This document shows positions 27,735 through 49,647 of a stretch of DNA of 59,997 nt, piece after piece (position 1 is the first letter of the stretch; each line of letters starts with the position of its first letter). The DNA is taken from assembly GCA_014874485.1 (NCBI GenBank), contig JADBJK010000047.1, positions 1-59,997 of the forward strand. The letters are read 5' to 3'. The position numbers were made by a program, and so were the translations under genes. The DNA is from Chloroflexota bacterium (GTDB taxonomy: Bacteria > Chloroflexota > Anaerolineae > DTLA01). The notes under the pieces are model-generated. The model saw only the letters and a list, made by a program, of their open reading frames with translations, was not told where the DNA came from and did not search any database.

Positions 27735-28035
27735 TTGTCATTGCGAGCGAAGCGAAGCAATCCCAGGTCCTACTGTCATGCTGAGCGAAGCGAAGCATCA
27801 GCGAAGCGAAGCATCTCGTTGACGAGGTTCTTCGGCGCTTCGCGCCTCAGAATGACAGCCTACCGGGATTGCTTCGGGCGCTCCGCGCCCTCGCAATGAC
27901 AACGCCTGCCTGTCATTGCGAGCGAAGCGAAGCAATCTCGGTTGGCGAGATTGTTCGGCGCTTCGCGCCTCAGAATGACCGTAGGGACAATTCATGAATT
28001 GTCCCTACGGGCGCTCCGCGCCCTCGCAATGACAC
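27735..28035. repeat. Family D repeats (GCGAGCGAAGCGAAGC type)
   Basis: Four interleaved copies of TTGCGAGCGAAGCGAAGCAA or TCATGCTGAGCGAAGCGAAG with GGTTGGCGAGATTCTTCGGC and GGGCGCTCCGCGCCCTCGCA arms. A family P palindrome is inserted in one copy. With 27238-27734, where nothing else is recognised, this fills the 0.8-kb gap beside the orphan response regulator. Confidence 0.85.
27979..28010. repeat. Family P perfect palindrome, core AATTCATGAATT
   Basis: A 32-bp perfect palindrome: CCGTAGGGACAATTCA followed directly by its reverse complement. It interrupts a family D repeat. A 26-bp version of the same core is at 42063-42088, also inside family D. Confidence 0.9.
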
Positions 28036-45169: not shown

Positions 45170-46105
45170 TCACTGTGCCAGTCTGCGCACCTCGGTCTGC
45201 ACGTCGGTGCCGTTGACCGAGACGCGCACGTAGTGGTAGAACCCGCCCTGGTCCGCGCTGCGGGACAGGGGCGCGCCGCCCCCGCCCGAAATGACGTAGA
45301 TGACGCCGTCGCGCGTGGATTGGTCGTAGGCGCGGATGTGGCCGGCGAAGACGTAACGCACTCCCCGGTGGCGCATGAGGGTCGTGAACGCCTCGTTGCC
45401 CATGGTCAGCACCTGGCCGGAGCCACGCGGGTCAAAGGGCGGGTAGTGCAGCGCCACGATTTTCACCGGCTTCTGCGTGGCCGCCAGGTCCGCGTCCAGC
45501 CAGGCGGTCTCCTCGGCCACCAGATAGCCGCGCGACGCATCGGCGACGGCGAAGTGCACCTGCCCGATGTCAAAGGAGTAGTGGGGGCCCGGCGCGCCCG
45601 TAAAGGCGAGGTAGTTGGCGAGCGAGCCGTCCGGGGCGTCCTGGTTGCCCGGAACGGTGTACACCGGCAGCGGGAAGTCGGCCATGGACTCGCGCCACGC
45701 CTGGAACTCGGCCGCCGAGCCTTTGGCCGTCATGTTCCCCAGGTGGATGAGGAAACTGTTGCCGTCGGCTACAATCTGATTGAGCAGCGCCTTGTACACG
45801 TCGGGGTTGTCGGCAGACTCGCCGATGACCGCGAAGGAGTAGGTCGTGGCCGAGGGGTCCAGGGTGGGGCGCGCGGCGAGCGGCACGGGCGTCATGGTGG
45901 GCAGGGGCGCGGGCGTGGCCGACGGTCCGGCAGTGGGCGCGGCGGTGCGGTTCGCCGTCTGGGCTGCGGGCGGCAGGGTGGGGGCCGGTTGCGGCGCAGG
46001 GGCCCCGAGGAACGCATAGCCCAGCGCCATGCTGAGGACCACAACCCCGCTCAGGATGTAGAGAAAAATCTGGCCTGTGCTGCGCCGTCCGCGCCGTCGC
46101 GCCAT
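45170..46105 (-). CDS. Exported metallophosphoesterase with degenerate metal site
   Basis: A 311-residue protein; the ATG at 46105 has GGGAGGG upstream. An N-terminal membrane segment (FLYILSGVVVLSMALGYAFL) is followed by a Pro/Ala/Thr stalk (~residues 38-82) and a calcineurin-like domain. Metal-site motifs are altered: LIHLGNM instead of GD, VPGNQDAPDG instead of GNHD/E, LHYPPFDP, and AGHIRAYD instead of GHxH. Catalysis may therefore be weak or absent. It is 30 bp before ligA, probably in one operon without an obvious shared function. Confidence 0.78.
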   Translation of the reverse strand: MARRRGRRSTGQIFLYILSGVVVLSMALGYAFLGAPAPQPAPTLPPAAQTANRTAAPTAGPSATPAPLPTMTPVPLAARPTLDPSATTYSFAVIGESADNPDVYKALLNQIVADGNSFLIHLGNMTAKGSAAEFQAWRESMADFPLPVYTVPGNQDAPDGSLANYLAFTGAPGPHYSFDIGQVHFAVADASRGYLVAEETAWLDADLAATQKPVKIVALHYPPFDPRGSGQVLTMGNEAFTTLMRHRGVRYVFAGHIRAYDQSTRDGVIYVISGGGGAPLSRSADQGGFYHYVRVSVNGTDVQTEVRRLAQ

Positions 46106-46429
46106 GGATGCCCTCCCATGATGGAAGATATGATGCCTCGCCGGCGAGATTCCCACCGCCCGGAGCGCGAAGAACACAGCGAGAACGCGAGGTGGATTTC
46201 GGCGCGCTCTGCGGTGATCCTCTCAGCCCATTCGCGCGGCGCAATTATAGCACCCGCGGCGGGGGCGGGCAAACGCTGGCCGCCGGGTCTCGTTTCAACG
46301 CCCGTTGGCGGCACTGTGATTCTGCGCCGCGTCGCAGTGTGCAATCGCGCGGCGGCGCTTGTGCACGGGCGACGCATGCGCCGCCGGTACAGGCCACCAG
46401 CGACGCGCCTCAACGTAACAGTCTTCCCG

Positions 46430-46655
46430 TCCTTGCGAGCGAAGCGAAGCAATCTCACACCCCCGGGGATTGCTTCGGGCGCTACGCGCCCTCGCAATGA
46501 CACTCCCTCCACCGTCCTTGCGAGCGAAGCGAAGCAATCTCACACCCCCGGGGATTGCTTCGGGCGCTGCGCGCCCTCGCGATGACATTTTGTGCGTGTC
46601 GTTGCGAGCGAAGCGAAGCAATCTCACACCCCCGGGGATTGCTTCGGGGGCTGCG
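46430..46655. repeat. Family D repeats, three tandem copies
   Basis: Three ~82-bp copies of GCGAGCGAAGCGAAGCAATC, CACACCCCCGGGGATTGCTT and CGGGCGCTxCGCGCCCTCGC arms, the last one truncated. They lie upstream of the cytochrome promoter and contain no gene. Confidence 0.9.
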
Positions 46656-46713
46656 ATAAGATAGGCAAATGCACCTATTTGGATAAGATATGCAAATAAC
46701 TTGAGCAGGATAC

Positions 46714-46742
46714 TTGACAATGCGGGGCCGGTGTGGTATACT
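46714..46742 (+). promoter_or_regulatory. Promoter of the decaheme cytochrome leader
   Basis: TTGACA (46714-46719), 17 bases and TATACT (46737-46742). Transcription would start near 46749, about 580 nt before the coding region. Confidence 0.75.
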
Positions 46743-46748
46743 GTATCC

Positions 46749-47331
46749 AAGCCTCATCCAGGAGACAGGATTGGAAACCCGTGTTCCTTGAACCAAGGCC
46801 CTCGGGGGAACACGCATCAGGCGCTCGCGCAGGAGAGGGTTTCCGCGTTCCGCGCAGCAGGCGGCGACCTTCCCGGCGTGGGCGAGAAAGGAGGTGGTGG
46901 TCTAGAGTAGGTTCTTGCCGTTTCTCATCCGTAGCATGGGTGTCAAGCAGCATCACAACGCCGTGAAGCGCGATGCATGTGCTCCTGGTTACATCCCTAC
47001 CGCTCGTCCGTGCTATGCCAAGCACCGAGCGGATCGCGATGCGCTGCCGAGAGGGTAGCGCGGGGTCGTAACCGTCCATCCCAACCTGGCGGTTGGGGCG
47101 GTGGAGACCGGTAACCATGAGCCGCAAGGCGTTCGCCTGCATGAACACCGGCTGCCGTTGCACCTGTCAACCGCTTGTCCCGTCGGTCTGCGGCCCATTG
47201 GGGGCCGGAATGCGCCGACGCGGACCGTGTCGTTACCGAGGGCACGCGGGCTTCACCCCTTGGTGCGACGGGGCCACCCGTGTTCGTATGCGGACGCAAA
47301 CCCAAAACCAATTGCCTAAGGAGGAGGCAAG
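46749..47331 (+). ncRNA. Structured leader RNA upstream of the cytochrome gene
   Basis: No gene is supported here, but many complementary segments are. GGAAACCC (46773-46780) pairs with GGGTTTCC (46837-46844) and encloses GTGTTCC/GGAACAC (46781-46787 with 46807-46813) and a GCG-CTCG-CGC stem, giving a three-way junction. Further hairpins include GTGCT/AGCAC within GCTCG/CGAGC (about 47007-47034), GCGCTGCC-GAGA-GGGTAGCGC (near 47040-47062) and CCCAAC/GTTGGG (near 47081-47100). GGTTAC and GTAACC could close a larger domain. I do not recognise a known riboswitch. It ends in GGAGGAGG before the ATG. Confidence 0.5.
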
Positions 47332-49647
47332 ATGTCCAAGAAACTCATCGCTGCACTAGGGTTCTGCTTTGTCCTGCTGTTGGCCGCAGCGCTGATGGCA
47401 GGCTGCGCTGGCCCTCAGGGCCCCGCCGGCCCTCAAGGTCCTGCTGGCCCTCCGGGCCCTGCCGGTCCTCAGGGTCCTGCCGGCCCTACTACCCTCGTTA
47501 CGCTGCCCAGCCAGCCCGAGACTTGTACCGTCTGCCACAAGCGCGCGGGCGCCACGCACCAGACCTACTATGACCAGTTGTATCAGGATGGCGTCATCAA
47601 GGTTTCCGACATCACCTACTCGTTCACGCCGCCCGATACCAGCAAGGTCAGTTTCAAGTTGACCAAGAACGGCGCCCCCTTTGACGTGCGGCAGGCGGAC
47701 TCGTGGGCCGTGTACTTCGTACCCTACGCCGATTCCAAGTTCCAGTTTGAGCCCGCCCGCGGCCGTCTGTCCCTGAAAGGGAAGACCACCTATGACGGCC
47801 AGGGCGTTGCGACGACTGTGGTTACCGGCACCACGAACCTGGCGGCCATGAACGGTCTCATCGTCGTGTACGGCACGGATGAGATCGTCGGCAGGCTGCC
47901 CGCCCGCGTCAGCCAGGGCAAGTACCCGTTCGTGGGGATGAAGGAAACCGGCAAGGGTGTGGACTACACGTCCCCGGCCAACGTTGCGGGCTGCGAGAAG
48001 TGCCACACGGTGCCCTACCTGAAGCACGGCTACATCTATGCCCAGGTTGATGGCGACCCGGCAACGGACTTCTACACCTGCAAGGTCTGCCACCTGGACA
48101 ACGGCGAGGGCGGCCACTTTGAGTGGCAACTGCTGGTTACCGATCCGGCCAAGGCAATTCCGGTCCTGGAGAGCGAAGAGAACGTAACGCCTGAGATCAA
48201 GGCCCAGTTTGCGTACAAGACCACGGTGATGAACGACGTGCACATGTCGCACGCCATGGAGTTCCCGTATCCGCAGTCTATGGCCAACTGCGTAACCTGC
48301 CACGAGGGCAAACTGGACAAGATTCTGGCCGACGCGAACTTCAAGACGGAAGTCTGCAAGAGTTGCCACCCGGTAACGAGCGTTGAGGGTCTGGAGACCC
48401 ATGCGCCCGCGCTGAAGGGTATCCTGCCGTCGCCCATCCATGACAACCTGGACCTGAACACCGTGGATTGCACCACCTGCCACGGCGAGGGCAAGGCGGC
48501 TCGTGGCTTCAGCAAGATCCACACCGGCTACGACAAGGCCATCTACACCGCATCTGGCCAGAAGTACTCGGACGCCATCAAGGTCAGCATTGACAGCGCG
48601 TCCTTCGCCGACAACAAACTCACCTTCGCCTTCAGCGCGGCCGAGGATCCCGACCTGGAAGGCGTCAACGCGGCGGACATCGTTCCGACCGTGCTGGTCA
48701 GCCTGTACGGGTGGGACACGAAGGACTTCGTCCTCGGCGGTCATGAGCGCCTTGTGGACACCAACGGCGACGGCAAGATTGACCGCAACGACCAGCCGAT
48801 CCTGGAAGCCGCGCTGGGCGAGGAGCACCCGAACGTCAAGGTAACCTCAACCGGCGCCGGCAAGTGGGAGGCGACGTTTGACCTGTCCCAGTGGGCCGAC
48901 CTGCTGACCAACGGCTCCGTGAAGCGCGCGGAGGTCGCGGTCATGCCGGCTCTGAAGAACGCGGACGGCGTTATGGTCGCCCTGGTCGCCCCGTCCCGCA
49001 CCTTTGACTTCGGCGCCAACGCCTTTGACGACAAGTTCAACAAGCCCATCGTCAAGGTGGCCGACGGCTGCGACAACTGCCACGGCGCGCTGGGCACCAC
49101 GTTCCACACGCCAGATCGCGGCGGCAATGCGGTCGTCTGCCGCATGTGCCACATCACCAAGAGCGGCGCTGCCCATCTGGAGATGCAGTCGCGGTCGCTG
49201 GATTCCTACATCCATGCGACCCATGCGATGCAGCCGTACGACGTCGGCAGCATTGACTTCGCCGACCCGGTGCAGGCCATGCACTACGAGCACCACATTG
49301 AGTTCCCGTTCCCGACGCATGGTATCACCAACTGCGAGGCCTGCCACGTCAAGGGGACCTACGAGGCTGCGAGCGAGACCAAGTCGCTGCCCGGCCTGCT
49401 CTCGGCCAGCGCGACCCTGAAGAATCGGACCCGGAACATCGGTGCTGTTCCGTCGTATGTTACCGGTCCCGGCTCCAGGGCCTGCGGTGGCTGCCACCGG
49501 GCCGTCGCGATCAACGAGGATGCCGTTGGCGAACTGGTGGCCTTCAATGTGCACACCCAGAACGGCGGCTACCTCGTGGAAGCGGGCGACAAGCCTGTGG
49601 ATACCCTCATGAAGGTCATTGACGAGGTCATGGGGGCGTTCAAGTAA
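47332..49647 (+). CDS. Decaheme c-type cytochrome lipoprotein (OmcA/MtrC-like)
   Basis: A 771-residue exported protein. The signal peptide ends at lipobox LMAGC (C25), directly followed by a 26-residue collagen-like Gly-Pro stalk (residues 27-52, GPQGPAG repeats). Ten CxxCH heme sites are seen: CTVCH, CEKCH, CKVCH, CVTCH, CKSCH and CTTCH, then after a ~200-residue heme-free domain CDNCH, CRMCH, CEACH and CGGCH. That arrangement and size match OmcA/MtrC surface cytochromes of extracellular electron transfer. An EF-hand-like DTNGDGKIDRND lies in the middle domain. No porin or partner cytochrome is adjacent. Confidence 0.92.
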   Translation: MSKKLIAALGFCFVLLLAAALMAGCAGPQGPAGPQGPAGPPGPAGPQGPAGPTTLVTLPSQPETCTVCHKRAGATHQTYYDQLYQDGVIKVSDITYSFTPPDTSKVSFKLTKNGAPFDVRQADSWAVYFVPYADSKFQFEPARGRLSLKGKTTYDGQGVATTVVTGTTNLAAMNGLIVVYGTDEIVGRLPARVSQGKYPFVGMKETGKGVDYTSPANVAGCEKCHTVPYLKHGYIYAQVDGDPATDFYTCKVCHLDNGEGGHFEWQLLVTDPAKAIPVLESEENVTPEIKAQFAYKTTVMNDVHMSHAMEFPYPQSMANCVTCHEGKLDKILADANFKTEVCKSCHPVTSVEGLETHAPALKGILPSPIHDNLDLNTVDCTTCHGEGKAARGFSKIHTGYDKAIYTASGQKYSDAIKVSIDSASFADNKLTFAFSAAEDPDLEGVNAADIVPTVLVSLYGWDTKDFVLGGHERLVDTNGDGKIDRNDQPILEAALGEEHPNVKVTSTGAGKWEATFDLSQWADLLTNGSVKRAEVAVMPALKNADGVMVALVAPSRTFDFGANAFDDKFNKPIVKVADGCDNCHGALGTTFHTPDRGGNAVVCRMCHITKSGAAHLEMQSRSLDSYIHATHAMQPYDVGSIDFADPVQAMHYEHHIEFPFPTHGITNCEACHVKGTYEAASETKSLPGLLSASATLKNRTRNIGAVPSYVTGPGSRACGGCHRAVAINEDAVGELVAFNVHTQNGGYLVEAGDKPVDTLMKVIDEVMGAFK

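Follow-up and report, generated by a model that had tools for sequence, protein, structure and literature searches.

A long leader with an upstream Shine-Dalgarno motif and a predicted four-way-junction RNA before a decaheme cytochrome gene of Anaerolineae

The cytochrome gene, its promoter and the extent of the leader

In an uncultured Anaerolineae bacterium, the start codon of a decaheme cytochrome gene stands 589 nt downstream of the -10 element of its promoter, raising the question of what so long a leader contains and how it might serve the message. The gene (47332-49647; coordinates refer to the window, that is, the whole 59,997-nt stretch of DNA analyzed, and the features named lie on its + strand) encodes an MtrC/MtrF-like c-type lipoprotein of 771 aa. 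It bears out an initial call of a decaheme cytochrome at 47332, in that the product carries 10 CXXCH motifs and matches Mtrc-MtrF_II-IV_dom (MtrC/MtrF domains II/IV) as well as other multiheme families; it is an outer-surface protein for extracellular electron transfer. A collagen-like GPQ/GPA linker follows the lipobox, with GPQGPAGP repeats at 47404-47490, before the heme domain. This segment is possibly a stalk, and such repeats are also found in cytochrome homologues from other genera.

The sigma-70 type promoter (46714-46742) comprises TTGACA (46714-46719) and TATACT (46737-46742) separated by a 17-nt spacer, with 11 of 12 consensus letters and a TG before the -10. The first-pass annotation, which had placed a near-consensus promoter about 590 bp before the cytochrome start, was thus correct, and transcription would be expected to begin near 46749. 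Comparison was made within a genus set of three genomes, namely the source genome of the window (G000), G001 and G002. Both promoter hexamers are identical across the three, and the spacers of G000 and G001 agree at 7 of 17 letters only; the distance from the -10 to the ATG is 589 nt in G000 and G002 and 603 nt in G001.

Upstream of the -35 lies a direct repeat, GATAAGATANGCAAAT, with copies at 46655-46670 (GATAAGATAGGCAAAT) and 46682-46697 (GATAAGATATGCAAAT), 27 nt apart from start to start. Two matches within three mismatches occur across the window (0.20 expected), and the arrangement beside the -35 is largely retained in G002 and was not seen in the upstream region of G001. The repeat (46655-46697) is a candidate transcription-factor binding site or operator. 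A separate 76-nt repeat (TTGCGAGCGAAGCGAAGCAATCTC...) is present three times in tandem at 46427-46671, just 5' of the promoter, with a spacing of 84-85 nt; its core occurs again at 27743, 27918 and 42281, and related copies are found upstream in G002, with none seen upstream in G001.

The whole leader sequence is present once in the 3.74 Mb host genome. A DNA search of 100 relatives recovered the whole leader from G002 at 93% and a short patch from G001, whose leader was located through the cytochrome gene (94% identical in protein); this search also gave a 27-nt match to a region in G004. Leader identity is 533/576 between G000 and G002 and 321/569 between G000 and G001, and the four-fold sites of the cytochrome gene are identical at 322/380 and 290/389, respectively. 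The leader is therefore well preserved between G000 and G002, and between G000 and G001 it has evolved more quickly than the silent sites, a divergence beyond the four-fold sites that points to weak constraint over most of it. The contrast between G001 and G002 might reflect recombination that moved the gene but not its leader. Changes between the G000 and G002 leaders show no codon periodicity (11/16/16 by position) and no ORF is common to the G000 and G001 leaders, and a coding leader or a leader peptide was rejected as the main reading on this basis. The leader is real and partly structured and, judged by its sequence, untranslated.

Structure within the leader

None of 100 dinucleotide shuffles folds as well as the 583-nt leader (z -3.28), which agrees with the original description of the leader as long and structured. 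A single fold spanning the whole leader is nevertheless unsupported, since the genomes do not preserve its MFE fold: 47 of 114 changed pairs are kept, against a null of 0.36 +/- 0.07, and from G000 to G002 the count is 7/24. The three aligned leaders have 61 helices in common, compared with 40.6 +/- 9.8 in 30 shuffles; shared helices with several double changes (6 vs 4.2 +/- 2.5) are not above the null, so that the shared-helix scan alone proves nothing.

The stems to which attention had first been drawn fall in the 5' part of the leader (46743-46885), for which a conserved fold is unsupported. Across the 5' half (46743-46990) the alifold z is -0.57 (3 sequences, 200 column shuffles), and single-sequence z values against dinucleotide shuffles for the 5' part are -1.13 in G000 and -0.64 in G001. 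The 8-bp helix 46773-46780/46837-46844 is indeed present in the sequence but is not special, having a pair probability of 0.014 in the 583-nt ensemble; the leader holds two 8-bp stems of that kind against a shuffle mean of 1.38, and 181 of 500 shuffles reach two. Given this chance frequency, the low pair probability and its absence from G001, it was rejected as a structural core. The covariation in homologous leaders that had been proposed as a check is likewise absent from the half with these stems and is present further downstream, at 46983-47120.

Modeling predicts that this central segment (46983-47120) forms a four-way junction, closed by P1 (46986-46992/47111-47117) and composed further of P2 (47001-47031), P3 (47041-47061, capped by a GAGA loop of the GNRA type) and P4 (47064-47109). 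Its alifold z is -6.25, with none of 200 column shuffles of the three sequences as good, and single-sequence z values against dinucleotide shuffles are -3.59 (G000), -4.10 (G002) and -5.07 (G001). Folded alone, each of the three sequences gives the same junction, with a P1 probability of at least 0.93 and slightly different inner details of P2 and P4 in G002. Two genomes have TGGTTAC/GTAACCA as P1, where the third has TGGCCGC/GCGGCCA, and junction pairs changed on both sides number 7 vs 2.3 in shuffles, none of 500 shuffles reaching 7, a covariation signal drawn from three sequences that represent in effect two lineages. One-sided changes in the junction (C-G to U-G) are consistent with the + strand. 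P3 forms in every single-sequence fold and pairs in 75-83% of cells of the covariation alignment, where its poor pairing is due to a misplaced gap. A 3' hairpin domain follows (47121-47310), in which a conserved long stem is less well supported: alifold z over 47125-47300 is -4.5 (3 sequences), less strong than for 46983-47120, and single-sequence values are -2.02 (G000), -0.73 (G002) and -2.63 (G001).

Each of the three genomes has the junction as a single copy, 5' of one electron-transfer gene. A covariance model of it (R1) gave three strong E-values among 100 relatives, all from the genus members, with three more matches at E 0.09-0.76; among 396 genomes of the class it returned the three genus members and one match at E 0.07, and among 49 sources, including other cytochrome-homologue leaders, the window's own domain and three weak matches. 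Nothing convincing was thus found beyond the genus in these three sets, within which the predicted junction is an orphan of one genus. A weak minus-strand match of the model (46928-47050, 20.5 bits) falls on the palindromic P2 hairpin.

An upstream Shine-Dalgarno motif in the genome and the class

Between the 5' part and the junction lies a feature absent from the account in the first-pass annotation, an upstream Shine-Dalgarno motif, GAAAGGAGGTG (46886-46896), placed 446 nt before the start codon. It is complementary to the 16S 3' end (CACCTCCTTTC) and pairs over 11 nt with that of the genome's own 16S gene, which ends ...GGATCACCTCCTTTC; with this 3' end, GAAAGGAGGTGATC-type motifs could form 14 nt of pairing. 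The aligned place is occupied by AAAGGAGGTG in G002 and by AAGGGAGGTG in G001.

The genome contains GAAAGGAGGTG at 16 sites, compared with one for the reversed word. In eleven of the 16 cases the word precedes, by 89-120 nt, a start equipped with a ribosome site of its own; the remainder are the cytochrome leader (446 nt), the 16S gene read backwards, two ordinary ribosome sites and one unassigned site. No consistent start codon is found 4-10 nt behind the motif in the 11 cases. Solute-binding proteins are encoded behind 7 of 9 sites tested, the other genes being those for CstA and a prismane/CO dehydrogenase family protein. The genome also encodes RNase J (C-terminal domain PF17770, 70.9 bits, over the cut-off).

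Across 150 genomes of the class, the pattern of AAGGAGGTG with GGAG-N5-10-ATG 60-90 nt behind it was found 886 times, compared with 168 for a scrambled first word, 180 for a spacing of 170-200 nt and 88 for the pattern backwards. At a distance of about 85-110 nt upstream of the start of the gene it precedes, the motif is therefore about five-fold over-represented across the class, with 117 of the 150 genomes above the scrambled control and 13 below. Among 30 class loci, solute-binding proteins follow in 16 of 20 tested, and 21 of the 30 pass a crude signal-peptide rule (two unresolved loci counted as misses) vs 5 of 19 window genes. In the phylum the pattern occurs in 159 of 301 genomes, 33 of 38 in Anaerolineae and 126 of 263 elsewhere; most counts outside the class are 0-2, near background, marking it as mainly a class feature. 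By sequence, then, the motif is common in Anaerolineae, mainly before ABC solute-binding protein genes, an association that merits separate study.

Leaders of other cytochrome homologues from several genera also carry the motif, 86-300 nt before the start (L037, L040, L041, L042, L043, L056 and G003), and among those listed it is missing from L038, L039, L044, L058, L059 and L085. Folding the seven motif-bearing leaders gave a lean to structure for L043 (z -2.46) and G003 (z -1.85) but not for the other five.

A modular reading of the leader and its relation to known systems

The reading we prefer, whose chances of being right or wrong we judge to be evenly balanced, is of a modular 5' untranslated leader made up of a promoter, a 30S-holding GAAAGGAGGTG and a cis-regulatory four-way-junction insert. 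The sigma-70 promoter would start the leader near 46749; about 140 nt in, GAAAGGAGGTG, with no consistent start codon behind it, would pair with the 16S 3' end and most likely hold a 30S subunit, blocking 5' to 3' decay by RNase J by analogy with the STAB-SD of cry3A. The genus would have some 320 nt of additional RNA (46983 to about 47300) between the motif and the cytochrome ribosome site, the first 138 nt being the junction predicted from three independent folds and compensatory changes, which may act in cis on translation or mRNA stability via a ligand or a bound protein. Counting against this explanation are the position of the motif, 446 nt from the start rather than the usual 85-110, the unconserved MFE fold of the whole leader, its rapid divergence between G000 and G001, covariation drawn from what are in effect two lineages, and the failure to find an expression platform. 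Most likely the leader is transcribed, from a start placed by the promoter sequence, and combines 30S-mediated stabilization with a genus-specific cis-regulatory RNA. A broader proposal is that an upstream motif for 30S docking is a standard component of leaders in Anaerolineae, where it stabilizes mRNAs for exported proteins made in abundance, ABC solute-binding proteins foremost among them, and that the genus added a new four-way-junction RNA controlling the decaheme cytochrome; this we advance tentatively, as somewhat less probable than its contrary.

Other readings assign different roles to the same parts. The structured insert might bind a protein (a regulator, ribosomal protein or RNase) or be a processing site, the structure being the signal without any small ligand. 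Its stable G+C-rich stems, the rapid change of its sequence with the fold kept and its position, with the 30S-binding motif on its 5' side and the ribosome site on its 3' side, would all suit such a role; this reading comes without a candidate protein, and we consider it possible but doubtful.

That the junction is instead a metabolite riboswitch controlling the ribosome site, possibly responding to heme, redox or a cyclic dinucleotide, seems unlikely. Its fold is conserved with covariation in three sequences, its single copy stands before one electron-transfer gene in each of the three genomes, and Geobacter has GEMM-Ib before many cytochrome genes (PMC6456294). Against this, the junction is known from one genus, one gene and three sequences, and no GEMM or other riboswitch match accompanies it: no Rfam family reaches its gathering score anywhere in the window, and below cut-off 46650-47400 gave two eukaryotic snoRNA/scaRNA matches at chance level (E 3.4 and 6.4), far below their cut-offs, so that a known RNA family was rejected for the leader. 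GEMM-I and GEMM-Ib match neither at the gathering threshold in the window nor at E values up to 10 within 46650-47400, consistent with the initial remark that the core of a cyclic-dinucleotide riboswitch is absent. A tRNA-like gene was likewise rejected, none being found. The ribosome-binding site AAGGAGGAGG (47318-47327) sits in a small hairpin, TTGCCT/AGGCAA (47312-47330), that is weak and no stabler than shuffles, and no + strand terminator was found within 46000-48000; hence no expression platform was identified. The suggestion of an undescribed leader is supported in so far as this is a long structured untranslated RNA without an Rfam match.

It is quite improbable that GAAAGGAGGTG serves a short regulatory frame, or leader peptide, as its ribosome site rather than acting as a stabilizer: it is a strong Shine-Dalgarno sequence and short frames occur nearby in each genome, but the 11 cases in the genome lack a consistent start codon 4-10 nt after the motif, no frame is common to G000 and G001, and codon periodicity is missing. 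Least credible is a leader of mostly neutral G+C-rich DNA below a distant promoter with its fold due to chance, a reading that would account for the fast divergence and the 5' half without structure support and that is countered by three sequences folding to the same junction (z -3.6 to -5.1) with compensatory changes exceeding every shuffle.

If the modular reading holds, the stabilizer would help to explain how transporter operons yield abundant binding protein and would offer a simple, testable rule applicable to leaders throughout the class. The junction, for its part, would give an extracellular electron-transfer protein a candidate regulatory RNA, and none of that kind is named for the phylum in the open literature surveyed.

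Among known systems, the closest parallel to the upstream motif is the STAB-SD. PMC4113751 describes a long cry3A precursor in Bacillus thuringiensis starting 558 nt upstream, with a STAB-SD near -129, and elements of this type in Bacillus and other Gram-positive bacteria. Such elements are characterized by not directing translation initiation and by a bound 30S subunit that stabilizes the message and fixes where its 5' end lies. Shared with these are a Shine-Dalgarno sequence far 5' of the true ribosome site with no consistent start codon behind it, complementarity to the 16S 3' end, and RNase J in the host genome. The Anaerolineae motif thus resembles STAB-SD in sequence, position and the presence of RNase J, and an effect on stability would follow by analogy. 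It differs in belonging to another phylum, in lying, in this leader, 446 nt ahead of the start codon and separated from it by a structured insert, and in being found in Anaerolineae mainly before solute-binding protein genes; judged by titles and the starts of abstracts, the open papers listed include no STAB-SD-type report for Chloroflexota. The GEMM-I and GEMM-Ib RNAs of Geobacter (c-di-GMP, cGAMP) are likewise structured leaders before multiheme cytochrome genes, but here there is no covariance-model match, the fold is a four-way junction and there is no terminator platform, so that no model match favors a cyclic-dinucleotide riboswitch of the Geobacter type. A third comparison is with the orphan leader motifs among 104 candidates from a comparative genomics screen (PMC2864571), which are covarying structures upstream of genes without an assigned ligand; the junction differs in being known from three sequences of one genus, and the Chloroflexi-1 and pan motifs, for which that paper gives Rfam accessions, do not match the leader. 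Read from its sequence, the leader would be a known kind of 5' element, common in the class, newly combined with an orphan four-way junction of one genus, an arrangement that suggests an undescribed way of controlling or stabilizing a cytochrome message.
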